Shown here: piece after piece, positions 31,475-47,725 of the stretch
Layout of the letters: each line of letters starts with the position of its first letter
Numbering within the stretch: the first letter of the stretch is position 1
Assembly (NCBI GenBank): GCA_029262115.1
Contig: JAJCZZ010000084.1
Span: 1-64,000, forward strand
Length of the DNA: 64,000 nt
Direction: 5' to 3'
Source of the DNA: Gemmatimonadota bacterium
Lineage (GTDB): Bacteria > Gemmatimonadota > Gemmatimonadetes > Longimicrobiales > Gaopeijiaceae
Position numbers and translations under genes: made by a program
Notes under the pieces: generated by a model
Seen by the model: the letters and a program-made list of their open reading frames with translations, nothing else
What the model was told of the DNA's origin: nothing
Database searches by the model: none

Positions 31475-31619
31475 CGTGTTCTACTAGTGGAGAAGTTCAG
31501 CCTAACAGATGCGACCAACTTATCCGTAGCGCCAGTCGAGACGGCAGGTCCCGACACGAGCCAAGCGGCGGGAGTCCGAGCGGGTTCACGACACCTCCCC
31601 CCACGGCGCACCCCCCAAC

Positions 31620-31976: not shown

Positions 31977-32061
31977 GCAGACGGCTCCTGTTCGGGGTAG
32001 AGCGCCAAAGTTGGGGTGTCGACACGCCCGCTGCCAGACGCACGTGCAGCGCCGACCCCAC

Positions 32062-32706
32062 TCAACCGCAGGGCGTCGGCCGGTTTCGCTTGCGAACCCA
32101 GGTGTATGTGCGCCGAGGAACCCACTCCCCGTTCTCCCGAGCCAGGCTCCCGGCGACGTGGGTGTCGGCGTCGGGCCACTCTTCGAAGTGCCCCAGCATT
32201 TCCGTCCCGGTCGGCCAATGGAATTCCTGGACGAGCACCGGATCACGCCCCTCGTCGAAGTGGCCGAATCCCACCGCTCCACCGGCGTTCGACTGGTACA
32301 GCATGCCCTTGCCTTCGACGGGGTCCCACGCCTGGAAGAAATTCCAGTAGACGCCGCTCACCTCGCCGTCGATCTCACCCCACAAGCACCCCACGGCCGA
32401 CATCCCTCCGGGCATCAACTCCAGGGCCAAGCCGTAGATCTCGTCCTCGTCCGGGGTGGCACGATACTCCGCGTTCGAGGTGATCCACGCGCCATCGGTA
32501 AGGTTCGCGAGCTTCGCGACGAAGGCGGCGCGCGCCGCTGCCGGATCGTCGTCCTGGGCCGCGACGACCCCAGGCTGACCCAGCGTACTCGACAGCACGA
32601 TACCGATCCCACATGCGATCGCTCTGAGCCCCGGATTCGGGGCCCGTGACGTCCGACTTACCTCTACATCCGCTCGCTCTCCATACATCGGGACCCCCGG
32701 TTTCAT
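32062..32706 (-). CDS. Hypothetical exported protein (calycin-like)
   Basis: This 214-residue protein has an N-terminal signal ending VVAAQDDD. The mature part has a beta pattern (DGAWITSNAEYRATPDEDEI, AVGCLWGEIDGEVSGVYWNF, GFGHFDEGRDPVLVQEFHWP, REN-type turns and TYTWVRKR), compatible with a lipocalin-like or DUF1579-like barrel. I do not recognise a named family. The start may be 32706 or the internal ATG at 32688. Confidence 0.6.
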   Translation of the reverse strand: MKPGVPMYGERADVEVSRTSRAPNPGLRAIACGIGIVLSSTLGQPGVVAAQDDDPAAARAAFVAKLANLTDGAWITSNAEYRATPDEDEIYGLALELMPGGMSAVGCLWGEIDGEVSGVYWNFFQAWDPVEGKGMLYQSNAGGAVGFGHFDEGRDPVLVQEFHWPTGTEMLGHFEEWPDADTHVAGSLARENGEWVPRRTYTWVRKRNRPTPCG

Positions 32707-32848
32707 AGCCTTGCGCGTCCTTTCCCCGATGACGCTGGGCTGCCGCGGGTCACCAGTCCATGGAGGCCACCGAAGGAGTATCTGAGGACCGTCTGAGGAG
32801 GACCTCCCGAGTTCTGAGTAGGCCCCTCGAGTCAGGGTGGCGCCGGGC

Positions 32849-34063
32849 CTAACCGTCCTCTTCTACACTCAGCCCCATGGCTTCCAGCATCCGGATGATC
32901 TCGTCGACGTGCTCGCGGCCGCGGGTCTCCAGGTTGAGGACGATCTCGACCTCGCCCACCGAAATGTCCGCAAACGCCCGTCGATGGTATGTCTCCCGAA
33001 CGTTGGCGCCCAGCCGCGCGACGGTCTCGGTCAGCCGGGCCAGGAAGCCCGGCCGGTCGGGCACCTTGACCATGAGGTGGGCCGCGCGTCCATCCAGCAC
33101 GAGCCCTCGATCGATGATCCGGGACACCCGGTTTACGTCGATGTTGCCGCCGGACAGCACCACGGCGATCCGCTCGTCTCGGCCTCGCACCGGAATGCGC
33201 GACGACACGAGCGCGGCAAGCCCGACCGCGCCGGCGCCCTCCACCACGGTCTTTCGCCGCTCGAGGAGCAGGAAGATGGCCGAAGCGATCTCTTCCTCGC
33301 TGACCACGACGAGGTCGTCCACGTACTTCTGGATGACGGGAAAGGTCAGGTCGCCCACCCGCTTGACCGCGATCCCGTCCGCGAGCGTATCAGTCGCGCT
33401 GATCTTCACGATGTGACCGGCCGAGCGAGACGCACGCGCCGACGGCGCGGCTTCGGCCTCCACCCCGATCACTCGGACCTCCGGCCGCTGCTCCTTGATG
33501 GCAACGGCCACCCCCGAGATCATGCCCCCTCCACCGACCGGCACCACCACGGTGTCGACATCGGGGATCGACTCCAGGAGCTCCAACGCCATGGTTCCCT
33601 GGCCCGCCATGACCGCCTCGTCGTCGAAGGCCGGTACCATGACGAGGCCCTGGCTCTCCGCCAGCCGGCGCGCCTCGACGGCGCTCTCGTCCAGGATCGC
33701 GCCCGATTGGACGACGCGTGCGCCGTACGCTCGAGTGTTGGACACTTTGATCAACGGAGCGGGGTCGGGCATGACCACCGTCACCGGCACACCGAGCCGC
33801 CCGCCGTGGTAGGCGAGGGCCTGCGCATGGTTTCCCGCGCTCGCAGCGATAACGCCCCGTCGGCGCTGCTCGCTGTCGAGCTGGAGCAGCTTGTTCAGGG
33901 ACCCTCGATCCTTGAACGAGCCCGTGCGCTGGTGGTTCTCGAACTTGAACCAGAGGGTCCCGGGCGCGACGTCCTCGAAGGATCGGGCCGGCGCGCACAG
34001 GGTCTCGACGACGCCGTCCCGGATCCGCTCACGGGCGGAACGGATGTCAGCGAGCGTCAGCAT
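32849..34063 (-). CDS. ilvA: Threonine ammonia-lyase (threonine deaminase)
   Basis: This 404-residue PLP-dependent enzyme converts threonine to 2-oxobutyrate and ammonia, feeding isoleucine synthesis or catabolism. The PLP lysine lies in TGSFKDRGSLNKL, the phosphate-binding glycine loop in VVVPVGGGGMISGVAVA, and a C-terminal regulatory ACT domain runs from about residue 330 (HLMVKVPDRPGFLARLTETV). The single ACT domain resembles the catabolic (TdcB-like/IlvA short) form rather than the long biosynthetic one. It stands next to a small unknown gene on the same strand. Confidence 0.93.
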   Translation of the reverse strand: MLTLADIRSARERIRDGVVETLCAPARSFEDVAPGTLWFKFENHQRTGSFKDRGSLNKLLQLDSEQRRRGVIAASAGNHAQALAYHGGRLGVPVTVVMPDPAPLIKVSNTRAYGARVVQSGAILDESAVEARRLAESQGLVMVPAFDDEAVMAGQGTMALELLESIPDVDTVVVPVGGGGMISGVAVAIKEQRPEVRVIGVEAEAAPSARASRSAGHIVKISATDTLADGIAVKRVGDLTFPVIQKYVDDLVVVSEEEIASAIFLLLERRKTVVEGAGAVGLAALVSSRIPVRGRDERIAVVLSGGNIDVNRVSRIIDRGLVLDGRAAHLMVKVPDRPGFLARLTETVARLGANVRETYHRRAFADISVGEVEIVLNLETRGREHVDEIIRMLEAMGLSVEEDG

Positions 34064-34075
34064 GTCAGATGAGGC

Positions 34076-34486
34076 TCAGGTCCGCTTCTCGTACACCGCC
34101 ACCCGGAGCGCGGGCGCGAGCGTATAGTGAAAACGGAGGCGGTTCTCGCCTTCCACGATCACGTTCGAGGTCTTCTGGCGCGTCTTGGGGTAGTCATGCC
34201 CGCTCTCGTTCTCGACGACCAGGACCTGCTGCTCGCTCAACCCATCGAGCAGCTCCTGGATCTTTGCTTCAAGCCGGTCGAGCAACTCCTGCTCGGTGTG
34301 GTCCTGCACGGGGCCGTCGGCCGAGGCGGTCAACTCGTGGAGCTGGACCTTGTGGTATCCGCCTACGAATTCCTCCGTGGGGATCGCCTCCTGACGGTCC
34401 CGCCGGAACGAGACCTCGTTCAAGGCCTTGGAGTCGAAGTTCAGGACAACGGACTGGTAGCTGTTGCCGTACTGTTTGAAGATCAC
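34076..34486 (-). CDS. Conserved hypothetical protein
   Basis: This 136-residue soluble protein begins IFKQYGNSYQSVVLNFDSKA and contains a charged helical middle (LLDRLEAKIQELLDGLSEQQ), then ENESGHDYPKTRQKTSNVIV. No domain is recognised. It lies 12 bases upstream of the threonine deaminase gene on the same strand, so they may share a transcript. Confidence 0.65.
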   Translation of the reverse strand: MIFKQYGNSYQSVVLNFDSKALNEVSFRRDRQEAIPTEEFVGGYHKVQLHELTASADGPVQDHTEQELLDRLEAKIQELLDGLSEQQVLVVENESGHDYPKTRQKTSNVIVEGENRLRFHYTLAPALRVAVYEKRT

Positions 34487-34605
34487 GACGTGCTCCTCCC
34501 TGTTGTCGCGGGATGTGTGGGCGAAGTGCCGAGCGAAGCCGGTCGGCTGCCGCGAGCCGCGCAGCTCGCGCGGACCCGCCTCACCTACGCAGAGGTTATC
34601 CTACC

Positions 34606-35865
34606 CTAGTCGCTCGGGTCGAGCAGCGCGGCCAGCTCTTCGGGCGAGAGGTCGTCCACCGAACGCGACCCCATACCCTGCGGCGCCCGGGAATTCCTTC
34701 CCCGCCTCGGCGCGGCTCGGTCTTCGGTCTGGGGCGTGCCGGCGTAGTCGTACTCGGGAAGGTGGACGCGTTCGACACTGCGTCCAAGCCGATACTCGAG
34801 GGTCTTCATAGCGCCGAGATCTCCGGCCGTGACGAGCGTGACGGCCGTTCCCTCCGCTCCGGCTCGACCGGTTCGCCCGATCCGGTGGACGTAATCCTCG
34901 GGGTCCTGCGGGATGTCGTAGTTCACGACGTGGCTGATCCCGTCGACGTCCAGGCCGCGCTGGGCGATGTCGGTGGCGACCAGCACCCGGACGCTCCCAG
35001 TCGCGAACCGATCGAGCGCGCGCGTGCGGTGCTTCATCTGGCGATCCGAGTGCATCACGTCCGCCTTGATGCCCTCTCGCTGCAGTCGAGACTCGAGTAC
35101 GTCGGCGCCCGCCTTCGTGCGGGTGAAGACCAGGACCTGGCTCCACCCTTTCTGCTTCAGAAGATTGAGCAAAAGGTCCGGCTTCTTCTCCGGCTTGACC
35201 GAATAGAAGACCTCGGTGACTCCCTCGGCCGTCGTGCCGGCCGGCGTCGCTTCGATCCAGACGGCGTCGCGCGTGATGCGCGTGGCGAGGTCGTGGACCC
35301 CGTTGGGCATCGTCGCGCTGAACAACATGGTCTGGCGCTTCTTCGGCATGCCGCGTAGGCACTGCTCGATCTGCGGTCGGAAGCCCATGTCGAGCATCCG
35401 GTCCGCCTCGTCGAGCACCAGATAGTTGACGTTCGAAAGGTCGACCCGATTCGACTGCATGTGGTCGATGAAGCGACCCGGAGTGGCCACGATGACCTCG
35501 TAGCCATCCTCAAGCGCCTTGATCTGAGGCCCGTATCCAACACCGCCGTAGATGGCTTCGACCCGAATATTCGTCCCCTTGGACAGAGACTCGGTGTCCT
35601 CTGCCACCTGTTGGGCCAGCTCGCGCGTCGGGCACAGCACCAGTACCTGCAGACCCTTACCCGCCTGAAGCCGCTCGAGGGCCGGAATCATGAAGGCGCC
35701 CGTCTTGCCCGTACCCGTCTGGGCAATTCCGACGACGTCGTTGCCCTCCAATCCGGGCAGAATGGCCTTGGCCTGAATCGGCGTCGGCGTCGTCCATCCC
35801 TGGGCCTCGATCGCAGCGAGGCGCTCCTCGCTCAACTTCAACTCACGAAAACTCGTTGCTTCCAC
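34606..35865 (-). CDS. DEAD-box RNA helicase
   Basis: This 419-residue helicase has all motifs in order: Q motif (WTTPTPIQAKAILPGLEGND), I AQTGTGKT, Ia PTRELAQQ, Ib TPGR, II DEAD (LVLDEADRMLDMGF), III SAT, IV TRTKAG, V ATDIAQRGLDVDG and VI HRIGRTGR. The C-terminal tail is basic and disordered. It unwinds structured RNA in ribosome or mRNA metabolism. The start at 35865 is GTG with a GGAG site six bases away and is the first position matching the family. The frame is open upstream but without homology. Confidence 0.95.
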   Translation of the reverse strand: MEATSFRELKLSEERLAAIEAQGWTTPTPIQAKAILPGLEGNDVVGIAQTGTGKTGAFMIPALERLQAGKGLQVLVLCPTRELAQQVAEDTESLSKGTNIRVEAIYGGVGYGPQIKALEDGYEVIVATPGRFIDHMQSNRVDLSNVNYLVLDEADRMLDMGFRPQIEQCLRGMPKKRQTMLFSATMPNGVHDLATRITRDAVWIEATPAGTTAEGVTEVFYSVKPEKKPDLLLNLLKQKGWSQVLVFTRTKAGADVLESRLQREGIKADVMHSDRQMKHRTRALDRFATGSVRVLVATDIAQRGLDVDGISHVVNYDIPQDPEDYVHRIGRTGRAGAEGTAVTLVTAGDLGAMKTLEYRLGRSVERVHLPEYDYAGTPQTEDRAAPRRGRNSRAPQGMGSRSVDDLSPEELAALLDPSD

Positions 35866-36035
35866 GTCCGCTCCGGCGTCGGCCGCTCCGATAGGGCGGC
35901 GCAGATTACGACCCGGGCCATTCCCAGGCCGGGTTTGGCGAAAGGTAACGGGCTTGCTTGCGTGACGTGTAGACTGGCACGAGTTTGGGGCCGACCCGCC
36001 CGCAGACCCACCTTTCAACGCCTATCCGCGGTCCG

Positions 36036-36545
36036 ATGGAATCCTCCGACAACGGGCCCGCCCCCACGTCCGTTCTGTTCGTATGCCTTGGCAATATCTG
36101 CCGGTCCCCGCTGGCCGAAGGTGTCTTCAAGCACCTGCTCGAAGCGGAAGGTCTCTCAAACCGTTTCATCGTCGATTCAGCAGGCACCGGGGGATGGCAT
36201 GTCGGTGAGCCGCCTGACTCCCGCGCAGCCTACGTGGCAGAGAGCCACGGGATCACCCTCGACAGCCACGCGCGGCAGGTTCAGTCGGAGGACACGAACC
36301 GCTTCGACATCCTTGTCGCGATGGACCACGAGAACCTCAGGAACCTCGAACGCATGGCGAGCGAGGAGGAGGGGAGCGCGGAGATCCATCTTCTGCGAGA
36401 GTGGGATCCCGAGAAGTCGGAAGGGGACGAGGTACCGGACCCCTACTACGGAGGTCCGACCGGCTTTGAAAACGTCTACCGCATGATCCACCGGTCGTGT
36501 GAGGGGTTGCTCGAGCATCTGCGGAGCGGAGCGTGGGCTGGCTAG
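36036..36545 (+). CDS. Low-molecular-weight protein-tyrosine phosphatase
   Basis: This roughly 169-residue phosphatase has the P-loop VCLGNICRSPLAEG (C-x5-R-S) near the N-terminus and the general-acid loop with DPYYGGPTGFE near the C-terminus, both required for catalysis. It removes phosphate from tyrosine or from small molecules. The start at 36036 (MESSDNGPAP) is preferred to an upstream ATG with no homology. The stop overlaps the stop of the convergent gene by four bases. Confidence 0.93.
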   Translation: MESSDNGPAPTSVLFVCLGNICRSPLAEGVFKHLLEAEGLSNRFIVDSAGTGGWHVGEPPDSRAAYVAESHGITLDSHARQVQSEDTNRFDILVAMDHENLRNLERMASEEEGSAEIHLLREWDPEKSEGDEVPDPYYGGPTGFENVYRMIHRSCEGLLEHLRSGAWAG

Positions 36546-36826
36546 GAGGCTTCTCGCCCCCTGCGGCCGCCGGCGCGCAGCCGCCTCCATCCCCAATCCA
36601 GGGCGAGCGAGAGGAGCAGCAAGACAGCGAGTATCATCAACCCATTGAACCCGAGGAGAGGCCCGAGGACGAGATGGGCCACATAGGCTGGGGCCAGGAG
36701 CACACGCCAGACGATGGTCGGAGGGACTCCCTGGGATGCCAACGCCATGGCCACCTCCGACGCCACCAGCGCCAACGTCGCCGGATAGCGGGCTATCAGC
36801 CCTACGATCGGGGAGCCGTTACTCAT
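36542..36826 (-). CDS. Small membrane protein
   Basis: The 94-residue protein has two or three hydrophobic helices (LIARYPATLALVASEVAMAL, VLLAPAYVAHLVLGPLLGFN, LMILAVLLLLSLALDWGW) and an arginine-rich end. No family is recognised. It overlaps the phosphatase gene end to end by four bases. Confidence 0.55.
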   Translation of the reverse strand: MSNGSPIVGLIARYPATLALVASEVAMALASQGVPPTIVWRVLLAPAYVAHLVLGPLLGFNGLMILAVLLLLSLALDWGWRRLRAGGRRGREAS

Positions 36827-36905
36827 TACCCATGGTCCGTCACGGATTCAGTCAACCGGCGCGTCCTCCTTCCGGGTCCTCGTGCCCGGCAGTGGCCGCC
36901 CAACT

Positions 36906-37562
36906 CTACCTCCGGACCGCCACCGCCACACCGTCGCCCACCGGAAGGATGGTCGCGTCGAAATGATCGTGGCCGGCCAGCGCGCGGTTGAAGTCCTGGA
37001 GCGCCCGGGTCGCGGCGTCGGCTTCGTCCGAGTCGTCGAGAATCCGACCCTGCCAGAAGACGTTGTCCGCGAGCAACACCCCACCCGGGCGTAGCAGGCG
37101 CTGCGCCTGCTTCAAGTAGACGCCGTAGCGCTCCTTGTCCGCGTCCACGAACATGGCGTCCCACCCGCCGTCCGGCCCGAGCTCCTGGAGGAGGTCGACC
37201 GCGTTTCCCTGCCGGACCTCGACCATCTCCGCCCGACCCGCCCGGTCGATGAACTCCCGAGCGAGGGACGCGTGCTCCGGCTCACTCTCCATGGTCACGA
37301 CGCGCCCGTCGGCGGGAAGAGCCTTGGCGATCCAGAGCGCGGAATATCCTCCGAGCGTCCCGACTTCGACCACGCGACGGGCGCCGACGGCGCGGAGCAG
37401 GATGGACAGCAGATGGCCGGTGCGGGCGGGAACCTGGATCGAAGGGAAACCGCGGGCCTCCTGTTCGGCCCTCAACTCGGCCAAGATCGGATCCTCCCGC
37501 ACAAACAGCGCCTGGGCATAGTCCTCCAACTCCTCGCGCGACGGTCCGGACCGCTCGCTCAC
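36906..37562 (-). CDS. O-methyltransferase (COMT/CCoAMT type)
   Basis: This 218-residue SAM-dependent methyltransferase shows the SAM motif VVEVGTLGGYSALWIAKALP, the aspartate-bearing WDAMFVDADKERYGVYL and DNVFWQGRI, the metal-binding pattern of catechol/caffeoyl-CoA O-methyltransferases. The GTG start at 37562 overlaps the aminotransferase stop by four bases (GTGA), so the two genes form an operon. The substrate is unknown. Confidence 0.9.
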   Translation of the reverse strand: MSERSGPSREELEDYAQALFVREDPILAELRAEQEARGFPSIQVPARTGHLLSILLRAVGARRVVEVGTLGGYSALWIAKALPADGRVVTMESEPEHASLAREFIDRAGRAEMVEVRQGNAVDLLQELGPDGGWDAMFVDADKERYGVYLKQAQRLLRPGGVLLADNVFWQGRILDDSDEADAATRALQDFNRALAGHDHFDATILPVGDGVAVAVRR

Positions 37563-38761
37563 GCCGACGTCCCCGCGCCGACGAGCGCGCCAATCCGGCG
37601 GAATGCCTCTTCGAGCGAGTCGTCCGAAGCGGCGTAGCTCATTCGTACCCACCGGTCGTCGCCGAACGCCGCGCCCGGCACGAGGGCCACCCCCTGCTCC
37701 TTGAGCAGTCGGCTACACCACGCTGTGGCGTCGGTCACCCCGTCGTCGAAGAGGCCGTCCACACGGAAGTAGAGGTAGAACGCCCCCTCCGGCTCGACGA
37801 ATGACACGTCCGGCAGGACCTCGCCCAGTCGCGTCGTGACGAGGTCTCGCCGCCGTCGGAAGGCCCGACCCATCTCGTGAACGGATGCGTCGGCCGCGCC
37901 GGCGTCCGAAAACGCGGCGAGCGCGGCCATCTGGGACGGCGTTGCCGCGTTGGAGGTGATCTGGCTCTGGAGCGACGTGAACTTGGCCGCCAGATCGGGC
38001 TCACAGTAGGAGAAGCCGATCCGCCACCCCGTCATCGCGTAGCTCTTGGACGCGCCGTCGATCAGAACGATGTCGCCCACCCGATCGGCGGCGAGGTCGA
38101 GGATGCCTGCCGCGGCTGGCCGGTCATTCCCGTAATAGATGTTCCGGTAGATCTCGTCGGAGATGAGCACGACTCCGTTCGCCCGGGCCCACTCGGCAAT
38201 CGCCCTGAGTTCACTCAGCGAATAGACCGCCCCAGTAGGGTTGCACGGCGTGTTCAGGATCAACCCCCGGGTCGCGTCCGTGCGAGCCGTGTCGAGCACC
38301 GCCGGCGAGATCTTGAATCCGTCGGCCTCCGGTCCGCTGACGGGGAGCGGGATCGCGCGGGCGATCGTGACGAGGTCAGGGTAGCTCGTCCAGAACGGGG
38401 CGGCCACGAGGACGTGATCGCCGGGCCCGAACAGGCAGAAGATCGAATTGAAGAGGGCCTGCTTGGCACCGGAGCTGACGACGACGCCCTCCCACGGCAG
38501 GTCGTGACCCGCTCGCTCGGAGAGCCGTGCGGCAATGGCTTTTCGCAACTCCGGCACTCCCGCTGGCGGCGTATAGCGGGTCCTGCCCGCCCGAATCCCG
38601 GCGATGGCCGCGTCCGACACGAAAGACGGCGTGTCGAAGTCGGGCTCTCCCGCGCTCAGGTTGATGATGTCGCGCCCCTCCGCTGCGAGCCGCTTGGCCA
38701 ACGTGCTGACGGCGATGGTCGCCGACGGCTTCAGATCTCGAACGTTCGCTGACAGGCGCAT
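37559..38761 (-). CDS. aspC: Aspartate aminotransferase family (class I)
   Basis: This 400-residue PLP enzyme has LSAGEPDFDTPSFVSDAAIA, the substrate-binding RYTPPAGVPELRKAI, NTPCNPTGAVYS, the PLP lysine in GASKSYAMTGWRIGFSYC and a C-terminal arginine region RMSYAASDDSLEEAF. The pattern fits subgroup I-gamma aspartate (or aspartate/prephenate) aminotransferases. The start at 38761 matches the family. It is coupled to the methyltransferase. Confidence 0.9.
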   Translation of the reverse strand: MRLSANVRDLKPSATIAVSTLAKRLAAEGRDIINLSAGEPDFDTPSFVSDAAIAGIRAGRTRYTPPAGVPELRKAIAARLSERAGHDLPWEGVVVSSGAKQALFNSIFCLFGPGDHVLVAAPFWTSYPDLVTIARAIPLPVSGPEADGFKISPAVLDTARTDATRGLILNTPCNPTGAVYSLSELRAIAEWARANGVVLISDEIYRNIYYGNDRPAAAGILDLAADRVGDIVLIDGASKSYAMTGWRIGFSYCEPDLAAKFTSLQSQITSNAATPSQMAALAAFSDAGAADASVHEMGRAFRRRRDLVTTRLGEVLPDVSFVEPEGAFYLYFRVDGLFDDGVTDATAWCSRLLKEQGVALVPGAAFGDDRWVRMSYAASDDSLEEAFRRIGALVGAGTSA

Positions 38762-38890
38762 GGGCTCTCGTGTTCGGCCGGCGGGTCGAACCCGTCGGCG
38801 GTGGGGGGCTCGCAATATTGAGCGCGCGAAAGGGGGAATCAAGGAAGGGGCCCCGCTTTGCGACGCGCCCACCCGGAGTCACCTTCGACC

Positions 38891-39475
38891 ATGTCCATGA
38901 TCGCTGTGCGTCTGTACTACGACCTGATCGACCCGCTTTCCTACCTCCTGGATGTCGAGTGTACCGCCGTGGAGCGGGCGCGTGCCATCCGAGTCGAGCG
39001 GGTGCCCTTCGAGCTACGTCCGCCCCCCGCGGGGCTCATCGACTCCGAGTCACCCGAGTGGCGTGAGCGCTGGGACCTCGCCGAGGATATCGCTGGCGGG
39101 CTCGATATCGTCCTTCGGCGACCGTCCTTCGTTCCATGGAGCCGTAAGGCGCACGAGATGGTGATGCACGCGAAGGAGGTCGGCCACGAGGACGAGGTAC
39201 GTACGCGTCTGTTCCAGGCGACACTCATCGAGGGGCTGGACCTCGGCAGGATCGACGTCCTCGTGGGCCTCGCCCGGGAGATGGGGCTCGACGCCAGCCG
39301 GACCAAGGCCGTCCTGGACGTCGATCGCCACGCGGAGGCAGTGGCCGCCGCCCGCCTCGGCGCAACGGCACACTCCGTGGTCGAAGCCCCCGCGTTCGTA
39401 CGCGGCAGCAGCGTTCTTCGGGGCTTCCACAACCGCGACGCCCTGGACACCTTTCTCCGGGACACTGCCGGCTGA
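38891..39475 (+). CDS. DsbA-superfamily isomerase-like protein (HCCA type) lacking CxxC
   Basis: This 194-residue thioredoxin-fold protein of the DsbA/2-hydroxychromene-2-carboxylate isomerase group matches: AVRLYYDLIDPLSYLLDVEC, KAHEMVMHAKEVGHEDEVRT, LFQATLIEGLDLGRIDVLV and a C-terminal VEAPAFVRGSSVLRGFHNRD with the cis-proline. Where DsbA and FrnE have a CxxC pair the sequence reads DLIDPLSY, so it cannot be a thiol oxidant of the usual kind. The serine fits HCCA isomerases, which use glutathione. Confidence 0.8.
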   Translation: MSMIAVRLYYDLIDPLSYLLDVECTAVERARAIRVERVPFELRPPPAGLIDSESPEWRERWDLAEDIAGGLDIVLRRPSFVPWSRKAHEMVMHAKEVGHEDEVRTRLFQATLIEGLDLGRIDVLVGLAREMGLDASRTKAVLDVDRHAEAVAAARLGATAHSVVEAPAFVRGSSVLRGFHNRDALDTFLRDTAG

Positions 39476-39516
39476 CCGCCGTGGCTGGACCCGACCCTCC
39501 CTCCCAGTAGGACAGA

Positions 39517-39882
39517 ATGGCCGGATATCAACGAAAGACCGCCCTGTCGCCCCGTGAGATCCTCGAGCGCGCGGAGGAGTTTCTTCCCGCGCTGGCCGGA
39601 CTCACCCGTTCGAAGAGTTCCGGCCACGGAGCGACCTACACCGGGGCCGAGGGAACCGTGACCCTGGCCGCACATCGTCATGGTCACTACACGGAGGTCG
39701 TCGCGATGACCGACCGCTTGCGCACGTCACGGGTCGACTACGAGGTGCAGAAGTTTCTCAACCGGCTGCCGTACGAGCCGGGAGACGAAGGCGGTCCCGG
39801 CTCCGGTGAGCCCGACTCCACGCTCCAGGATGAGGCGAACAGCGCGTCTCCCGCTGGCGATATCGCCGCCGAGGCACCGTAA
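39517..39882 (+). CDS. Hypothetical protein
   Basis: This 121-residue protein has a charged N-terminal half (LSPREILERAEEFLPALAGL) and a compact beta-like segment (GTVTLAAHRHGHYTEVVAMT). The C-terminal 40 residues are acidic and low-complexity. It ends three bases before the degenerate DEAD-box gene, so they are likely cotranscribed. No family is recognised. Confidence 0.6.
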   Translation: MAGYQRKTALSPREILERAEEFLPALAGLTRSKSSGHGATYTGAEGTVTLAAHRHGHYTEVVAMTDRLRTSRVDYEVQKFLNRLPYEPGDEGGPGSGEPDSTLQDEANSASPAGDIAAEAP

Positions 39883-39885
39883 CCC

Positions 39886-41466
39886 GTGGACTCCTTTGAA
39901 GCGCTGGGAATCGGGCCGGAACTGGTCGAAGCGCTGGCAGCAGACGGTATCGAACAGCCCACACCCCTCCAGGAGACGGCGATCCCCGTGCTGCGGAGGG
40001 CGAACAACGCCTTGCTAGCGGCCGGTCCCGGGTCGGGAACGTTGATCGCGTGGGGCGCGGCCATCCTCGACGCCCTGGACGGCGAGACTGAGGGGCCCGC
40101 CTGCCTGGTGTTGACACCGACGGCGCAGACAGCCGAGGCACTCGCACGTTCGCTGGCTCCGCTCGCCACCGCGGCAGGGCACTCGGTGGCGGCGCTCGAG
40201 TCCCCCTGGGTCATGCCAGAGCGAGCCCGAGTCCTCTTCGCGACGCCCGCGGCGGCGCTCGCCGCAGCCCGCGGTGGTTCGATTCCGATCGGGTCCATCG
40301 AGTCCCTCATCGTCGACCAGGCCGAGAAGCTCGAGACGCTGGGCCTGTTCCCCGTAGTGGAGAGCGTGCTGGGATTCCTCCCCAAGGAGGGCCAGCGCGT
40401 GGTGACCGCCCTGCCCGTGACGAAAGGCGTGTCCGACTTCGTTGAACGGCACGCACGACGTGCGACCATGATTCCGAGCGCCGCTCCCGAAGCGGGCTCG
40501 GCGGCAGCGTCGTTGAAGCGGGGCGCCATCCGCTTCCGTGTGGTCGCGGAGAACCGAGAAGACGGCGTTCTGGCTACCGTCGCGGAACTCCTCGATGACG
40601 ATGTCCGTCACGTGCTGGTCTTTTCGCGAAGTGAGGACCGCGCCGCCGACCTCGGCGACCACCTCGCGATGCACGGATACGACTCGTCGTCTCCGGGCGA
40701 CGAAACCGCACCGGTCTGGCTTGGCGTGGATGCGCTCGAAGCTCGGGCGGCAGTCAGCGGTGTGACCGGACTGGCGGTGGTCAGCGCCGACGTGCCGGTC
40801 GGTCCCGACGAACTCGATCGGAGGCACGGCATCGCGGACGACGGCGTGGCCGTGATCGTCCCCCGTGAGATTCCCCATCTTCGGGATCTGGCGCGCCGCA
40901 CCGGCTATTCGGTCCAGCCGTTGCCGATGAAGCCCGCCGCGCGACCCGAGGGGCTCCGTGACCTGCGGGACCAGTTGGCCCGGGCCATCGAGCAGGAGGA
41001 CGTGGACGCGTACGCGCTCGTGCTGGAGCCCCTCTTCGAGCAGTACGACGCCGTTCAGGTGGCGGCGGCGGCCACGGCGCTGCTGCGGAAGAAGGTGCCG
41101 GACGCCCCGGTGGCGGCAGCCACGCCGGCGGACGCCGCGGTGCGCTCGGCCCCTGCGTGGGTTCGCGTCTTCCTCAGCGTCGGGGAGCGCGACGGGCTGA
41201 CCCCGGGCGACCTTCTGGGCGCTATCACGGGCGAGGCCGGTGTTCCGGGTGGCAAAGTCGGGAAGATCGAGATCAAGGAGAGCCACTCGCTCGCCGACGT
41301 CGAGGAGTCGGTGGCACGCCAGGTGATCACGGCGTTGAACGGGACGTCGATCCGCGGGCGTGCGGTACGGGCGGATGTCGATCGCCCGCGGCGAAGCGGT
41401 CCGGGCCGGGGGAGTGGCGCAGGCGGCGGCGGTGGTTCTCGTGGAAGGCCGCCTCGACCCACCTGA
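39886..41466 (+). CDS. Degenerate DEAD-box-like protein with DbpA-type RNA-binding domain
   Basis: This 526-residue protein aligns with DEAD-box helicases but its catalytic motifs are lost. Motif I is LLAAGPGSGTLIAW (no lysine), motif II is IVDQAEKLE in place of DEAD, SAT reads TALPV, and motif VI HRxGRxxR reads LARRTGY. The Q-motif (GIEQPTPLQETAIPVL) is intact. The C-terminus has a DbpA/CsdA RRM-like domain (WVRVFLSVGERDGLTPGDLL to VKGRAV-type end) and a glycine-arginine tail. It probably binds RNA without unwinding it. The frame is intact, so the decay is old and the protein may have a selected role. Confidence 0.82.
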   Translation: MDSFEALGIGPELVEALAADGIEQPTPLQETAIPVLRRANNALLAAGPGSGTLIAWGAAILDALDGETEGPACLVLTPTAQTAEALARSLAPLATAAGHSVAALESPWVMPERARVLFATPAAALAAARGGSIPIGSIESLIVDQAEKLETLGLFPVVESVLGFLPKEGQRVVTALPVTKGVSDFVERHARRATMIPSAAPEAGSAAASLKRGAIRFRVVAENREDGVLATVAELLDDDVRHVLVFSRSEDRAADLGDHLAMHGYDSSSPGDETAPVWLGVDALEARAAVSGVTGLAVVSADVPVGPDELDRRHGIADDGVAVIVPREIPHLRDLARRTGYSVQPLPMKPAARPEGLRDLRDQLARAIEQEDVDAYALVLEPLFEQYDAVQVAAAATALLRKKVPDAPVAAATPADAAVRSAPAWVRVFLSVGERDGLTPGDLLGAITGEAGVPGGKVGKIEIKESHSLADVEESVARQVITALNGTSIRGRAVRADVDRPRRSGPGRGSGAGGGGGSRGRPPRPT

Positions 41467-41536
41467 TCCTCGGGCCACGCCAGGGCGTCACGCTGGCGTC
41501 ACCGTGGCCACCCCGTGGTGTCTAAGCGATGCGGAA

Positions 41537-41566
41537 GAGGCCGCGTCGCACTCGCGACGCGGCCTC
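41537..41566. terminator. Bidirectional hairpin between convergent genes
   Basis: Perfect 13-base arms, GAGGCCGCGTCGC and GCGACGCGGCCTC, flank an ACTC loop between the helicase-like gene and the HU gene. It has no clear T tract on either side, but is an unusually strong hairpin and the only one in the gap. Confidence 0.7.
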
Positions 41567-41620
41567 TCACCTCACTGAACACATCGCGGCCTCACGAACC
41601 GGCCGCGTCGGTCGGGCCTC

Positions 41621-41905
41621 CTACTTGATGCCGTCCTTGAGACCCTTACCGGCGCGGAAGCCGGGGGTCTTGGTCGCGGCGATCTTGATGGTCTCGCCCG
41701 TGCGAGGGTTGCGACCCGTACGTGCCTTGCGCTGCTTGGCCTCGAACGTGCCGAACCCGGTGATCTGGACGCGGTCTCCCTTCTTCAACGTCTTGGCGAT
41801 GATGCCGCTACCGGGGGAAAAGAGTGCGTCCACCGCCCGGCCGGCGTCGGCTTTCGTCATGCCGGTCGCCTCGGCAAGGGCGTCCACGAGATCGGACTTG
41901 TTCAT
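41621..41905 (-). CDS. hup: HU-family DNA-binding protein
   Basis: This 94-residue nucleoid protein shows MNKSDLVDALAEATGMTKAD, GRAVDALF, and the DNA-arm GFGTFEAKQRKARTGRNPRT with the intercalating proline region, followed by IAATKTPGFRAGK. It bends and compacts DNA. The start has a strong CAGGAG ribosome site. The frame is open upstream but only this start matches HU. It is monocistronic. Confidence 0.95.
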   Translation of the reverse strand: MNKSDLVDALAEATGMTKADAGRAVDALFSPGSGIIAKTLKKGDRVQITGFGTFEAKQRKARTGRNPRTGETIKIAATKTPGFRAGKGLKDGIK

Positions 41906-42143
41906 CTGGCAACTCCTGTAAGCTGGATGAGGAGGGTATGGGTCGCGGCCCTGGGCCGCCCTGGCGCGGGCCTCAGAGAGTCTCTCCAAGGAGTGCCCAC
42001 CACCTGAAAATGTAAGAGAATCAAGTGTTTCCGGACCCCGCGGGTCAGATGGCTCTACGTTAGGACCCGACCCCTGCAGCGTCAAGGGATAAAGTAGCCG
42101 AAAAGCCGCGCCCCACCTAGCTTCTTGCCGTCCGGGCAGGAAT

Positions 42144-43205
42144 TTGTCCGACATTCCCTCGCCCTCTCGGCGGATAGGCAACGCACGCGTGTCGCACTTC
42201 ATACCTCGTTTTCTGGGGGCCATCCTCGCGTTCCTCGTGCTCACGATCATCGGGAGCGTCGGGTACCTCTTGATCGAGAGCGTCTCACTCCTGGACGCCG
42301 TCTACATGACGGCCATCACACTCACGGCCGTGGGGTATCAGGAGGTCTTTCCGCTCAGCGTGTCGGGCCGCTCCTTCACGATGGGCCTCCTACTGGCCGG
42401 GGTCACATGGTTGGGATTCTGGTTCGCGCTCATCACTTCGTTTCTCGTCGAACTCGACCTCAAGGACGCACTCAGGAGACGCAGACTCGTGAAGGAAATG
42501 GAAGCGCTCAGTGGCCACGTCATTCTTTGCGGTGCGGGCCGGACCGGCCGCCAGGTCGCACAGGAACTTGCAGAAGCGGATAAGCCCTTTATTGCCGTGG
42601 ACCGAAGTGCAACTCGTCTAGCGGATCTGAAGGAGTACCTACCGGACGCCCTCACCCTCGAAGGCGATGCGACGCACGACCAGACCCTGCTCGACGCGGG
42701 GCTCACACGAGCGAGCGGTCTGGTCACCTGCCTGAGCGCCGACGCGGACAACCTGTTCGTCTGCCTCTCGGCGAGGGACCTCGCGGCTGGCGTCACGATC
42801 GTCGCCCGCGCGTACGAAGAGGAGACGCTCGACAAGTTGTACCGGGCGGGAGCCGATCACGTGGTGAGCCCCAACGTCAGCGGAGCGATCCGGATGGCGT
42901 CCATGCTTCTGAGGCCGTCCGTGGTCTCCTTTCTGGACATCGCCACGCGGTCCTCGGAGATGACGCTTCGGGTCGAAGAGGCGGAGGTAAAGGCTCAGTC
43001 GAAGCTGGCGGGACGCACGCTGGAAGAGTCCCGCATTCCCCAGCACACCGGCCTCATCGTCATTGCGGTGAAGAAGGTGGGGGGTGGGGGCCATGGATTC
43101 ACGTTCAATCCGATAGGCTCGACGATGGTCGACGCGGGCGACCGGATCATCGTGCTGGGCCGGCCCGACCAGATTCACGATCTGAAGTCGTTCACCGGCC
43201 AATAA
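42144..43205 (+). CDS. Two-helix K+ channel with TrkA-N (RCK) domains
   Basis: This 353-residue channel has two membrane helices (residues about 20-45 and 75-100) around a pore with filter-like TAVGYQEV, then a cytoplasmic TrkA-N Rossmann domain (HVILCGAGRTGRQVAQELAE) and a TrkA-C domain at about 270-345 (AGRTLEESRIPQHTGLIVIA). It resembles MthK/GsuK-type ligand-gated K+ channels. The filter ends in YQE where the canonical ending is YGD. A TTG start is used; a GTG at 42189 is an alternative. Confidence 0.88.
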   Translation: MSDIPSPSRRIGNARVSHFIPRFLGAILAFLVLTIIGSVGYLLIESVSLLDAVYMTAITLTAVGYQEVFPLSVSGRSFTMGLLLAGVTWLGFWFALITSFLVELDLKDALRRRRLVKEMEALSGHVILCGAGRTGRQVAQELAEADKPFIAVDRSATRLADLKEYLPDALTLEGDATHDQTLLDAGLTRASGLVTCLSADADNLFVCLSARDLAAGVTIVARAYEEETLDKLYRAGADHVVSPNVSGAIRMASMLLRPSVVSFLDIATRSSEMTLRVEEAEVKAQSKLAGRTLEESRIPQHTGLIVIAVKKVGGGGHGFTFNPIGSTMVDAGDRIIVLGRPDQIHDLKSFTGQ

Positions 43206-43241
43206 CGTTCACCGGCTGGTAGCGGACCGACACAAGGCACC

Positions 43242-43457
43242 TCAAGACGACGAGGTGCCGGACCACTCTCCATCGTCACGACGGCGCTTGAACAGCGAGT
43301 AAAGAAAGAACACCACGGCCGCAATGACGGCGATCTTTACCGTGAGCATCATGAGCCCGAAGAAGAGGGCGAGAATCGGGAACATGAGCATGCCGAAAAG
43401 CTTCACCAGAAGCAGCCCCCCGAGTCCGGCAACTGTGAGTGTCGCGAACGCTCTCAT
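43242..43457 (-). CDS. Small two-helix membrane protein
   Basis: The 71-residue protein has one long hydrophobic region (LTVAGLGGLLLVKLFGMLMF, then ILALFFGLMMLTVKIAVIAA) and a basic tail. A GGAGG ribosome site lies six bases before the ATG at 43457 and three before an ATG at 43460. I chose 43457. The function is unknown. Confidence 0.65.
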   Translation of the reverse strand: MRAFATLTVAGLGGLLLVKLFGMLMFPILALFFGLMMLTVKIAVIAAVVFFLYSLFKRRRDDGEWSGTSSS

Positions 43458-43460
43458 CAT

Positions 43461-43761
43461 TTCCCTCCTGTGGTCCCTTGATTCGTTTTCGGGCCGTTCC
43501 GTCGGCTCCGCCAGCACTTCCATACCACCACACTACCCTACGCGCCGTTGATTGGACGGGTTTCGGGACCGATGGGTTGCCATTCGGCCATTCCCGTGGC
43601 GCAAGCAGCCGCTTCGGCACGCGAGTGGCATGGCACTCCCTCACGCCGCGCGGACCTCGCTCCACGACCGACGCCATCCTACCCGACCGACGCTGACGTG
43701 CCGCCGGCGCCTGAGCGATTTCCTCGCTCGGGAACGTCTGCTTCCCATTCGGGAGGGTGTC
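43461..43761. other. About 300 bases without a recognisable gene
   Basis: Between divergent genes. Short frames are present but lack homology and ribosome sites. It holds the ribosome site of the leftward gene (43464-43468) and, near 43751-43757, that of the rightward gene. Confidence 0.5.
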
Positions 43762-44091
43762 ATGTTCATCCAAGGCCGTTCGCTCCTCCACAAGGGTCGG
43801 CACGTCGTGTCGACCGTTACCTGCTTGCTCGCGCTGGCATGGAGTCCGGTTCCCGGCCTCGCCGGGGTCGAGTGCCTCGCATTCGACAGTTGGGACTTTC
43901 CGCGGAACTGCACGTTCACGGAAATGCTCGGGCAGTGCCTCTGGGAGGCGACCCAATCGCGTAACGGGTGCATCGACCACGCCGACGGGTTGATCGCGAG
44001 AGGGCGGTGCCACTTCGCGTTCGGCATCGACTTCACCGCCTGCATCGTCGGATCCCCGCTCAACATCTGGATCGGGACCCTGAAGAAGTGA
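43762..44091 (+). CDS. Small secreted cysteine-rich protein
   Basis: A 109-residue protein with a clear signal peptide (RHVVSTVTCLLALAWSPVPG, cleaved near LAG-VEC) and a mature domain of about 73 residues with six cysteines (VEC, RNC, GQC, NGC, GRC, TAC), probably three disulfides. A GGGAGGG ribosome site precedes the ATG. No homologue is recognised. It is followed by a hairpin, then by a propeller lipoprotein and an ABC transporter on the same strand. Confidence 0.7.
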   Translation: MFIQGRSLLHKGRHVVSTVTCLLALAWSPVPGLAGVECLAFDSWDFPRNCTFTEMLGQCLWEATQSRNGCIDHADGLIARGRCHFAFGIDFTACIVGSPLNIWIGTLKK

Positions 44092-44098
44092 CGGGCCA

Positions 44099-44125
44099 GC
44101 CCGGGGGGCGCCCAGCTCCCCGGGC
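44099..44125 (+). terminator. Hairpin after the Cys-rich protein gene
   Basis: Perfect 8-base arms GCCCGGGG and CCCCGGGC lie just after the stop. No T tract follows, so it may be a weak terminator or an mRNA-stabilising hairpin that sets this gene apart from the next. Confidence 0.4.
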
Positions 44126-44204
44126 ATCCGACCCTCGGACAAGGTCCACGCTATCCGTCCCATCCAGACATTCCACCGCGGCCCACAGCGCAGAGATTCC
44201 CACC

Positions 44205-45305
44205 ATGGACCTCAACATCCTACGCGCCGGCATGATCACTGCCGCCATGCTCTCGATAGGGTGCGGCGCCGACTCGGCAGTCGACGGTGAGGGACGTTCG
44301 TTCGGTCCTGCACTCGTCGGCCCGGCACTGGATACGACCGCACTCGAGTGGACTACGCTCCCGGAGGTCGCTTCCGTATCGGACGCGCGAAGAACGTCGA
44401 GCGGGTGGTTCCTGGTCGACGTTCGGGTGGGGGAGGCCTACCACCTGTCCGACCACGCGACGTCGGTTCGCCCTGTCGCGCACCAGGGCGACGGGCCGGG
44501 CGAATTACGAATGCCCGAGTTCGCGGCTGTGGTCAGCGACACCGTCTGGATCCTCCCGCCCGCGCCAGTGCGTGCCGACGGATTCGGACCTGACGGGCGC
44601 TTCCTGCGGCAGCTCGCGCTCGGCGCGCCACCGTGCGCTCCAGCGCTCCTGCACGCGGTCGCGCCCGACCCACCCCGCGTCGCGATGGCCGTGCAATGCG
44701 TCACGCCCGACGGCACCAAGCGCTTTCTCGGCTGGGCGTCCTTGAGCGACGGAGTGACCGAGTGGGCTCCGTGGGGCGGGCCGGGCCCCCGACCCTCCCA
44801 ACTCGTGGGCGTCGTGGACATGGACCGTATGGGGTTGGCGTGGGGGGACGGGCGCCTGACCTCCACGCTATCGAGCGCCCACTGCGTCGGTCGGTCCGAC
44901 CCGCGACCGCTGGACGAGGCATGGACCGCTTTGGGCGGGGTGTACTCTCCGGCTCTCGGCCCCTGCCTGGACGAGACCGACCGACCACCCCTGGCCCCCG
45001 CCGTCATCACGTCCCTGCGTCGCGATCTCACGCCCATGGCCAAGCGCATCGGGCTCCGCTTCGAAGCTCCCACCCATGACGGCTATCTCGATCGGCTCTT
45101 CGTGACCGACCAGGGGTTGGTGGTATCGCGGCCGGACGGATCCGTGCTCGTGATCGAATCCCTGGATTGGTCCGACCGCGCGTGGCGGCTGCGCCTCCCC
45201 GAGGGAGTGACGCCGTTCCTTGCTGGTGGAGACGTTCTTCTCGTTCGGCAGGCGCTGGAGGGGACCACGGTCGCCCGTCTGACCCTGCAGAGCGTACTCC
45301 CGTGA
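44205..45305 (+). CDS. 6-bladed beta-propeller lipoprotein
   Basis: This 366-residue lipoprotein (signal MITAAMLSIGCGAD) is of the propeller type, with the family pattern AHQGDGPGELRMPEFAAVVS and repeated strands (VWILPPAPVRADGFGPDGRF). It is coupled to the following ABC ATPase gene by a GTGA overlap, which suggests a functional link: perhaps an external sensor or substrate-binding part of the transporter. Confidence 0.75.
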   Translation: MDLNILRAGMITAAMLSIGCGADSAVDGEGRSFGPALVGPALDTTALEWTTLPEVASVSDARRTSSGWFLVDVRVGEAYHLSDHATSVRPVAHQGDGPGELRMPEFAAVVSDTVWILPPAPVRADGFGPDGRFLRQLALGAPPCAPALLHAVAPDPPRVAMAVQCVTPDGTKRFLGWASLSDGVTEWAPWGGPGPRPSQLVGVVDMDRMGLAWGDGRLTSTLSSAHCVGRSDPRPLDEAWTALGGVYSPALGPCLDETDRPPLAPAVITSLRRDLTPMAKRIGLRFEAPTHDGYLDRLFVTDQGLVVSRPDGSVLVIESLDWSDRAWRLRLPEGVTPFLAGGDVLLVRQALEGTTVARLTLQSVLP

Positions 45306-46033
45306 CCGGCCCGGCCGTGACGGTTCGGGACGTCACGGCCGGGTACGGCCTCCTTACCAGGCGCGACGTCCTGACCGGCGTCAGCCTCGACCTTCCGGCC
45401 GGCGCGGCGACGGGGCTCATGGGTCGAAACGGGGCGGGAAAGACCACGCTCATCCGTCTGCTGCTCGGCGTCGGAGACCCCCGGAAGGGGCGAGTGGAGA
45501 TCGGCGACCTCGATCCGGCAGCGTACCGGGAGCGATTCGGTATCGGCTACCTACCCGAACGTACCGTCCTTCCGGGCGGGTGGATCCTCGACGACTTCCT
45601 ACGTTACGCTCGCTACCGATCGCGGGCATCCGACAGCGCCCGGGTCGCGGCCGATCAGGCACGGATCGTTTCGACCCTCGAGCTCGACTCCCGGCGAGGT
45701 GAACCGCTGTCGACTCTCTCCAAGGGGACGGCGCGGCGTGCGGCGCTCGCGTGGGCGCTCACCGGCGCCCCGTCCCTGGTCATCCTCGACGAGCCTGCGA
45801 GCGGCCTCGATCCGGCCTCTCGTATGGGACTCCGCAGGGTGATCGTGGACTGCGTGGCACGTGGCGCCACCGTCCTGATCTCGTCGCACGAGGTGGACGA
45901 AATGGTCCGCACGTGCAGCCATGTTCGAATCGTGCGTAACGGCGACGTGTCTCAGGCGTTTACGGGAGATCGCCTGCGCACCGATCTCCTCGAAAGCGCC
46001 CTGGCCGATATGGCCGTGCCCCCGCCCCCGTGA
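45302..46033 (+). CDS. ABC transporter ATP-binding protein
   Basis: This 243-residue ATPase has Walker A MGRNGAGKTTLIRLLLG, a signature-like LSKGTARRAALAWALTG (a variant of LSGGQ), Walker B LVILDEPASGLDP and the H-loop ISSHEVDEM. The GTG start overlaps the lipoprotein stop. It is most similar in pattern to the ATPases of two-gene CcmA/NatA-type exporters. The next gene is the permease. Confidence 0.92.
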   Translation: MTGPAVTVRDVTAGYGLLTRRDVLTGVSLDLPAGAATGLMGRNGAGKTTLIRLLLGVGDPRKGRVEIGDLDPAAYRERFGIGYLPERTVLPGGWILDDFLRYARYRSRASDSARVAADQARIVSTLELDSRRGEPLSTLSKGTARRAALAWALTGAPSLVILDEPASGLDPASRMGLRRVIVDCVARGATVLISSHEVDEMVRTCSHVRIVRNGDVSQAFTGDRLRTDLLESALADMAVPPPP

Positions 46034-46043
46034 GTGTCTCGAC

Positions 46044-46778
46044 ATGAGCGTGCCCCGCTTGGCGGTCCCCGCCCCCGTCCTGCCCACGGCGGCCCTGATG
46101 CGGAGGCGGCTGTGGTGGACCGTCGCCGCCGCCGCGGCCACGATCGCGGTCGCATGGGATCGGACCGACGGTCCGGAGGTCGCGGTCCCCTACCTCCTCC
46201 TCGTGGGTGGAGCCGTCACGATGCTGATGACCACCGGAGTGGTGGCCGGCGAGCAGAGGAGTGGTGTCGCCGATCTGTGGCTGCAAAAGGGCCGGTCTCC
46301 GTGGCGACTGGCGCTCGGTGGACTGGGCCACGCGCTCGTGGCTTCCCTCATGGTTTACCTCGTGCTCGCGGCACTGTACGTGGTCATCGACCGCAGATCG
46401 AGCGCGAGCGACGCCGCGAGTGCTCTCGTGGCTGGGATCCCTGGCATCGCCGTGATGGCATGCGTCGTGTTCGCCTTCTCCTGCTGGAGGGTGCGCCTCG
46501 ACATTATCCCGGCCATCGTCATGATCTTCTTTATCGGTCTGGCGGGCCACGACGCGGAGCAGAACCCCGGATCGGCCCCGCGCTGGGGTTGGCTGCTTCG
46601 GATCGTGCGGTTCCCACTGGCGGAGCTACAGGACCTCAGTGAGTGGGGAGGTGGCGGGGCCCTCCCGCCGATCGACTCGTGGGCTCGAATCGTCACCTAC
46701 GGGGGTGCCTGGCTCGCCCTCGGGCTGATCGGAGTGATCGTCCTGCCTCCGGCGCTGGGTCGGGACACAACGGAGTGA
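46044..46778 (+). CDS. ABC transporter permease (CcmB/ABC-2-like)
   Basis: This 244-residue membrane protein with about six helices (VAVPYLLLVGGAVTMLMTTG, ALVASLMVYLVLAALYVVID, GIPGIAVMACVVFAFSCW, IIPAIVMIFFIGLAG) is the partner of the preceding ATPase. The start is 10 bases after the ATPase stop. The next gene (minus strand) ends one base away. The cargo is unknown. Confidence 0.8.
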   Translation: MSVPRLAVPAPVLPTAALMRRRLWWTVAAAAATIAVAWDRTDGPEVAVPYLLLVGGAVTMLMTTGVVAGEQRSGVADLWLQKGRSPWRLALGGLGHALVASLMVYLVLAALYVVIDRRSSASDAASALVAGIPGIAVMACVVFAFSCWRVRLDIIPAIVMIFFIGLAGHDAEQNPGSAPRWGWLLRIVRFPLAELQDLSEWGGGGALPPIDSWARIVTYGGAWLALGLIGVIVLPPALGRDTTE

Positions 46779-46779
46779 C

Positions 46780-47574
46780 TCAGGCCGCCTTGTTCCCGGC
46801 TCCCGCCACGGCATCCTCCAACCCCTCGGCCGATACGGGCGCCCCACCCCCCAGGATCAGCGCGGCTTCGAGCGCGTGCGCCAGTTCGCGGACGTTGCCC
46901 GGCCAGTGGTACTCGGAAATGAACCGACGGGCGTCGCCGGCCAGGCTCACTTCGCCCAGACCGTGTCGCAGCGAGAGCGTGCGCATCAATCGGATGGCCA
47001 GATGGAGAGCATCGTCGGGCCGCTCCCGCAGAGGTGGGATGTGGTAGTGGAGCACCGCCACCCGGTGGAAAAGATCCCGGCGGAACTCGCCGTTTTCGAT
47101 CGCGCTCGCCAGATCGCATCCGGTGCCCGAGACGAGGCGGATGTCGATGGAGCGGACATCGTTGCCACCGACCCGGCGAACCTTGGCATCCTCGAGCGCG
47201 GTGAGCACCTTCCCCTGCTGCGTTCTCGGCATCTCACCCAGCTCGTCGAGAAACAGCGTGCCCCCGGCCGCCGCCTCCATGAGGCCAACCCGGCTCCGGT
47301 CAGCACCGGTGAACGCGCCCTTCTCGTGACCGAACAGCTCGCTCTCGAAGAGCGATTCCGGGATTCCGGCACAGTTGACAAGGACGAACGGGGAGTCGGC
47401 CCTCGGGCTCAGGCGGTGGATGACGCGGGCCACCATCGACTTGCCGGTGCCGGTCTCGCCCGTGATGAGGACCGGAACCGAGACGCCTCCGGCCTGGGCA
47501 ACAAAGCGCCGCAGAGCGGACATCGCGGGGCTGGGGCCTTCGATCGCGCGCAGGGCGTCGGAGTGGGAGTCCAT
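46780..47574 (-). CDS. Sigma54-interacting AAA+ activator without DNA-binding domain
   Basis: This 264-residue protein is essentially the central AAA+ domain of a bacterial enhancer-binding protein: Walker A ITGETGTGKSMVARVIH, the sigma54-contacting loop GHEKGAFTGADRSRVGLMEA, Walker B GGTLFLDELGEMPR, arginine fingers FRRDLFHRVAVL and ISEYHWPGNVRELAHALEAA. It lacks both an N-terminal sensor and a C-terminal Fis-type helix-turn-helix (ends VAGAGNKAA). A few bEBPs activate sigma54 from solution without DNA binding. The promoter it serves is not visible here. Confidence 0.88.
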   Translation of the reverse strand: MDSHSDALRAIEGPSPAMSALRRFVAQAGGVSVPVLITGETGTGKSMVARVIHRLSPRADSPFVLVNCAGIPESLFESELFGHEKGAFTGADRSRVGLMEAAAGGTLFLDELGEMPRTQQGKVLTALEDAKVRRVGGNDVRSIDIRLVSGTGCDLASAIENGEFRRDLFHRVAVLHYHIPPLRERPDDALHLAIRLMRTLSLRHGLGEVSLAGDARRFISEYHWPGNVRELAHALEAALILGGGAPVSAEGLEDAVAGAGNKAA

Positions 47575-47725
47575 GCCGCAAACGTGGCGCCATCCGGCGG
47601 GCGGGCGCATGGTGAGGCGGGACGGTGCGTCCCGCGTCCGATCGCCGTGGACCCGCAAGATATCCGCGGCTCAACCGAGCCGGATCGGCACAGGAGCAGT
47701 GGCGGACTACCCGACCCGCGATCGC

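Follow-up and report, generated by a model that had tools for sequence, protein, structure and literature searches.

An apparently ancient DEAD-box pseudohelicase with a DbpA-type RNA-binding domain in Gemmatimonadota

The 64,000-nt stretch of a Gemmatimonadota genome analyzed here (the window) encodes a protein that keeps the domain order of a DbpA-type DEAD-box RNA helicase and has lost motifs I, II, III, and VI. We read it as an ancient pseudohelicase under selection, and put the probability of this reading at about 0.93. Comparative sequence evidence indicates that the family to which it belongs is ancient and vertically inherited, in at least one class of Gemmatimonadota. A role as a passive adaptor, bound to RNA independently of ATP, is the function we favor, with modest confidence; that 23S rRNA is its main target is plausible, at somewhat below even odds.

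The initial annotation, made from sequence alone, described an intact 526-codon frame in which motif I has lost its lysine, DEAD reads DQAE, SAT reads TALP, and HRxGRxxR is gone, and all of these readings hold. Motif I is AGPGSGTL, motif II lies within VDQAE, TALP occupies residues 174-177, and there is no HRxGRxxR either in the window protein or in any of the 71 distinct orthologues from its family. In all, motifs I, Ia, Ib, II, III, V, and VI are destroyed, and the four hallmarks of an active DEAD-box RNA helicase (Walker A lysine, DEAD glutamate, SAT, and HRxGRxxR) are missing. Pfam detects a weak DEAD domain at residues 26-172 (E 7.1e-9, above cut-off), no Helicase_C match in the protein, and a DeaD dimerisation domain at residues 359-405 just under cut-off (PF25399, E 2.4e-4). 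The DbpA-type RNA-binding domain that was said to be retained is found at residues 427-496 (E 1.5e-22, above cut-off). Across the alignment, PF03880 occurs in 51/51 members, and PF25399 in 17/51 at E values up to 1e-3. The C-terminal 26 residues include six K/R and no D/E.

Table 1. Coordinates, within the window, of the pseudohelicase, its parts, and two neighboring genes
Feature	Position	Strand	Description
Active CshA-like DEAD-box helicase	34606..36018	-	All motifs intact; syntenic neighbor
Small gene	39517..39882	+	121 aa; probable operon partner; stop 3 nt before pseudohelicase start
Pseudohelicase gene	39886..41466	+	526 aa; GTG start; no internal stop
RecA1-like domain	39886..40479	+	Residues 1-198; retains the Q motif, lacks motifs I, Ia, Ib, II, III (AlphaFold model, structural matches, motif table)
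Degenerate P-loop AGPGSGTL (motif I)	40021..40044	+	Residues 46-53; lacks Lys
Degenerate motif II VDQAE	40312..40326	+	Residues 143-147
RecA2-like domain	40513..40929	+	Residues 210-348; alignment gap of six residues where the motif VI arginines would lie
Predicted dimerisation helices, DeaD_dimer-like	40948..41094	+	Residues 355-403; PF25399 sub-threshold; helices in model
DbpA-type RNA-binding domain	41158..41385	+	Residues 425-500; PF03880
Basic Gly/Arg-rich tail	41386..41463	+	Residues 501-526

The helicase architecture is predicted to persist. An AlphaFold2 model built from 51 orthologues (pLDDT 89.5) shows two RecA lobes, the RNA-binding domain, and three helices of the dimerisation type, and its top Foldseek match among solved structures is E. 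coli DbpA with RNA. The first lobe aligns to DEAD-box RecA1 structures over ~190-200 residues (Z ~28-31, rmsd 1.3-2.1), so that the model and the structural matches together support two RecA-like domains. At the level of sequence profiles, CshA (5ivl) aligns to residues 4-408, dimerisation part included, and the RNA-binding domain alone finds E. coli DbpA as its best solved match (8.5e-9), ahead of DeaD and YxiN. The protein thus combines a helicase-derived sequence carrying non-functional motifs with a conserved helicase structure, the latter as predicted, which are two of the marks of a pseudohelicase set out in PMC9539457. It is the sole protein of its sort in its own genome, where the other two DEAD-box matches are just 27-29% identical, and neither it nor the small upstream protein has a match in PHROGs.

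Matches better than 1e-27 occur in 113 of the 121 genomes of the window's family (f1) and in 71 of the 73 with completeness of 90% or more and contamination of no more than 5%; full-length f1 orthologues are 33-59% identical to the window protein. The near-complete f1 genomes in which the gene was not found are two, G025 and G114. In G114 (L158:8662-9356) the small gene lies directly beside HU with no remnant of the pseudohelicase, a clean loss, and the protein is therefore dispensable in that organism. Identical stretches were taken out before the 71-row f1 set was compiled, and one member (L035) was assigned to f1 on similarity alone. Outside f1, 59 candidate loci (40, then a later 19) were read one by one; four of the 40 turned out to encode active DeaD helicases and joined the control set, and all 19 later loci scored higher with the dead than with the active profile. 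The resulting 55 dead orthologues fall in seven coded families (f3, 10; f2, 6; f9, 6; f4, 7; f7, 14; f10, 2; f6, 10). Class-wide match counts mix pseudohelicases with active proteins, and we did not use them as family counts. In another class of the phylum (f11), none of five genomes has a DbpA domain above cut-off, so the origin of the pseudohelicase is not dated further back.

We compared 126 distinct dead orthologues with 19 active helicases of the same phylum as controls (6 of 43 CshA-type plus 13 DeaD-type rows). In the controls, the Walker lysine, the motif II glutamate, and motif VI are each present in 19/19, and SAT in 18/19. Among the dead orthologues, SAT and HRxGRxxR never occur (0/126 each), the glutamate survives in a single f4 protein, and the lysine remains in 15 (10/10 in f3, 5/6 in f9, none elsewhere). 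PTRELA is absent from all 126, and TPGR appears once, out of its proper place, so the RNA contacts of the core have gone too. A six-column gap sits exactly over GRxGRA of motif VI in 124/126 dead rows (the exceptions being L064 and L074) and in 0/19 active ones, a count that depends on the MAFFT alignment, the anchor-distance control having been too noisy to use. Within f1, lysine, glutamate, SAT, and motif VI are each found in 0/71 rows; conservation of the dead motifs, which had been suggested as a check, is thus what the orthologues display, and a pattern repeated in all 71 is not chance. We also considered a hidden Walker A elsewhere in the protein, which is ruled out in f1 by the absence of [AG]x4GK[ST] from all 71 sequences. 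Orthologues with canonical motifs had been named as the finding that would count against a retained pseudohelicase; 15 of the 55 outside f1 keep a canonical Walker A, and none carries a working motif set.

In f3 and f9 (L098, L100-L103, L107-L112, L130, L131, and L134-L136), Walker A is canonical in 15/16 and motifs II, III, and VI are lost; these proteins may bind ATP and not hydrolyze it. Proteins from f6 and f10 (L141, L144-L153, and L156) are mostly shorter, with a reduced second RecA lobe and a retained RNA-binding domain. In both f6 and f10 the core has become shorter and no longer has a Q motif, and it is for this reason not certain that a single mechanism serves all families.

A quick LG+G4 tree, which included 21 of the 71 f1 rows and omitted L135 and the 19 later loci, split 56 dead rows from 20 active rows at an SH-aLRT of 100. 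Six families (f1, f2, f3, f4, f7, and f9) each form one group, the groups follow the host families, and f1, f2, and f3, which belong to a common order, cluster at 95. Three changes of the Walker lysine are needed on this tree. It is simplest to suppose that hydrolysis was lost once, early on (motifs II, III, and VI), and that the lysine disappeared afterwards in separate events.

Constraint on these proteins was measured as Nei-Gojobori omega in the 24 closest pairs of the 55 above 68% identity, pairs that share sequences and are not independent. Wherever dS was unsaturated, omega stayed below 0.31 in every domain (RecA1, 0.05-0.26; RecA2, 0.03-0.30; RNA-binding domain, 0-0.19), and in 23 of these 24 non-independent pairs it was lower in the RNA-binding domain than in RecA1. 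Both the core and the RNA-binding domain are under purifying selection. Mean pairwise identity within the dead family is 44% for RecA1, 46% for RecA2, and 61% for the RNA-binding domain, whereas active DeaD helicases average 70%, 74%, and 58%, respectively; constraint has shifted from the engine to the RNA grip, the reverse of the active state. The initial annotation had proposed purifying selection on the tail as a check and regarded the Gly-Arg tail as retained. Purifying selection on the RNA-binding domain is strong, and the tail is indeed present in the window protein, but as a conserved feature it fails, being common in f1, f2, f3, and f7 and mostly missing in f4, f6, and f9. Since the tail is patchy among families, what has been kept is the domain rather than the tail. 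Conservation of the dead state together with purifying selection bears out the earlier view that the pseudohelicase is retained and is not one copy in decay; the RNA or ribosome binding proposed along with it is suggested by the domain.

The gene has a characteristic neighborhood. The order that recurs in f1 is PLP enzyme, CshA, LMW phosphatase, aminotransferase, DsbA-like, small gene, pseudohelicase, HU, and TrkA, and it is partly kept in f2, f3, f9, f4 (HU), and f7 (aminotransferase). The full helicase noted upstream at the outset is this CshA-like gene, ~3.9 kb away on the opposite strand. A heterodimer between it and the pseudohelicase is not favored, as the CshA-like protein has no Pfam dimerisation domain. 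The small protein has no Pfam or NCBIfam family and 12 invariant columns among 68 members, and its gene family is present in 136 of the 149 genomes of the class whose completeness reaches 90%. The small gene lies within 30 nt of the pseudohelicase gene in 51/66 loci, sometimes with a 1-14 nt overlap. The model of its protein (pLDDT 80) has a predicted beta-alpha-beta4-alpha fold, for which the fold search gave middling KA1- or START-like matches (best Z 10.3, rmsd 2.0 over 84 residues; best Foldseek E 1e-3). An Rfam scan of positions 33000-44000 and a tRNA scan of 30000-50000 returned no matches.

As we reconstruct it, an ancestral helicase of DbpA/DeaD type lost motif III together with the glutamate of catalysis and the arginines of motif VI, as the sequences show, and on the tree the Walker lysine went later in some lineages. 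The two-lobed fold, dimerisation helices, and DbpA-type RNA-binding domain were kept, the fold being predicted with high confidence. Such a protein would work without ATP, its RNA-binding domain docking on structured RNA, most likely 23S rRNA around hairpin 92, and the dead core, probably dimeric, would together with the small upstream-gene protein serve passively, as an adaptor, a placeholder, or a scaffold for assembly. Against this reading stands the strong conservation of the Q motif and the P-loop glycines in f1, for which a pure scaffold has no use. Excerpts from the literature describe the DbpA domain as binding hairpin 92 and recruiting DbpA to nascent ribosomes (PMC7973409) and link DbpA-domain helicases to 50S maturation (PMC8190605); a further excerpt indicates, from the example of Hera, that domains related to this one can bind without reading the loop of hairpin 92 (PMC3695512). 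The loop pattern itself has 14 matches in the window's own genome versus five for a control, a result uninformative on the target. Taken to its full extent, the proposal is an ATP-free step of 50S maturation in Gemmatimonadota, in which a dimeric dead helicase and its small partner stay permanently on 23S rRNA and replace a catalytic DbpA-type step. We hold this only tentatively, with the odds against it; bacteria would then have their first DEAD-box pseudohelicase spread through a whole lineage, and the orthologues would form a graded natural series of engine loss, from Walker A (f3, f9) through P-loop glycines only (f1) to a shrinking second lobe (f6, f10).

The nucleotide pocket is the ground for one competing explanation, namely, a nucleotide-sensing switch that binds an adenine nucleotide without hydrolysis and whose bound state alters the grip of the RNA-binding domain. 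In f1, Q-motif residues P25 and Q29 and P-loop residues G49 and G51 are invariant (71/71 rows where ungapped), and P48 and G47 are more than 90% conserved, where the average over RecA1 is 0.58; the positions of the former lysine and of DEAD are variable. The whole of Walker A is kept, moreover, in 15 of the 16 f3 and f9 proteins. However, the motif I lysine is lost throughout f1 and the threonine in most of it, the Q motif is also lost in f4 and f7, and the conserved glycines may merely shape the loop, so we consider a switch unlikely. Comparably improbable is a scaffold that holds the small upstream-gene protein on non-ribosomal RNA, in mRNA decay or with small RNAs, as the tight spacing of the two genes, the spread of both families through the class, and the nearby active CshA might suggest. 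Against it, G042 has the pseudohelicase with no small gene found, and G114 has the small gene with no pseudohelicase.

A natural dominant-negative, occupying the DbpA/DeaD site on the immature 50S and delaying assembly as a checkpoint, seems less probable still. The six-residue gap takes out the place in motif VI at which E. coli DbpA has R331. An R331A mutant of DbpA is, judging by a title, reportedly helicase-inactive, and another title reports a dominant negative DbpA mutant that blocks 50S assembly; we take the two to be the same mutant. Of the 65 f1 genomes with a DbpA domain, however, 53 have the pseudohelicase as their only DbpA-domain protein, and there it cannot mainly oppose an active DbpA-type competitor. 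Recent decay of one helicase copy into an ordinary pseudogene, to which the broken motifs alone might point, is refuted by a dead state common to 126 orthologues across several families, with intact frames and omega well below 1.

The passive adaptor that we prefer resembles several known proteins in part. E. coli DbpA and B. subtilis YxiN have RecA1, RecA2, and the RNA-binding domain in the same order, and DbpA is the best structural and domain match, but they hydrolyze ATP and unwind RNA, and the window protein, without motifs I, II, III, and VI, also has dimerisation-type helices. The match to CshA and the combination of dimerisation and RNA-binding domains that an excerpt reports for Hera (PMC3695512) recall the CshA/DeaD/Hera group; these, however, are all active dimers, and dimerisation of the window protein is predicted. 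The eukaryotic DEAD-box pseudohelicase Utp25/Def shares the fold, the non-functional motifs, and a link to ribosome assembly, but acts in the small-subunit processome, with a requirement shown experimentally, and the consulted portions of its description mention no DbpA-type domain (PMC9539457). Deinococcus radiodurans PriA is likewise bacterial, dead throughout its lineage, and still able to bind nucleic acid, yet it is a DNA replication-restart protein outside the DEAD-box family, with a measured loss of activity (PMC4504706, in part). The description of Utp25 presents it as the second proposed pseudohelicase after PriA (PMC9539457). These were the two proposed in the literature searched, in keeping with the initial remark that the form is not commonly described. 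In open-licence literature we found no description of a bacterial DEAD-box pseudohelicase, although an earlier one is possible, and searches combining Gemmatimonadetes with DEAD-box, or Gemmatimonadota with RNA helicase and ribosome, found nothing relevant. Pseudohelicases as such are known; a class-wide bacterial DEAD-box one that carries a DbpA-type domain and has decayed step by step appears to be new. Stepwise motif loss across a class would let one ask which DEAD-box parts matter without ATP and would open the question of whether ribosomes can be assembled with one energy-consuming step fewer, and the conserved small neighbor offers a direct handle for pull-downs.

Two nearby reading frames deserve mention. 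The HU-like frame at 41621-42250 (209 aa) has its HU domain just at residues 116-208, and its true start is probably further downstream. At 34076-34486, a 136-aa frame without a Pfam family is conserved beside the CshA gene in many f1 genomes.
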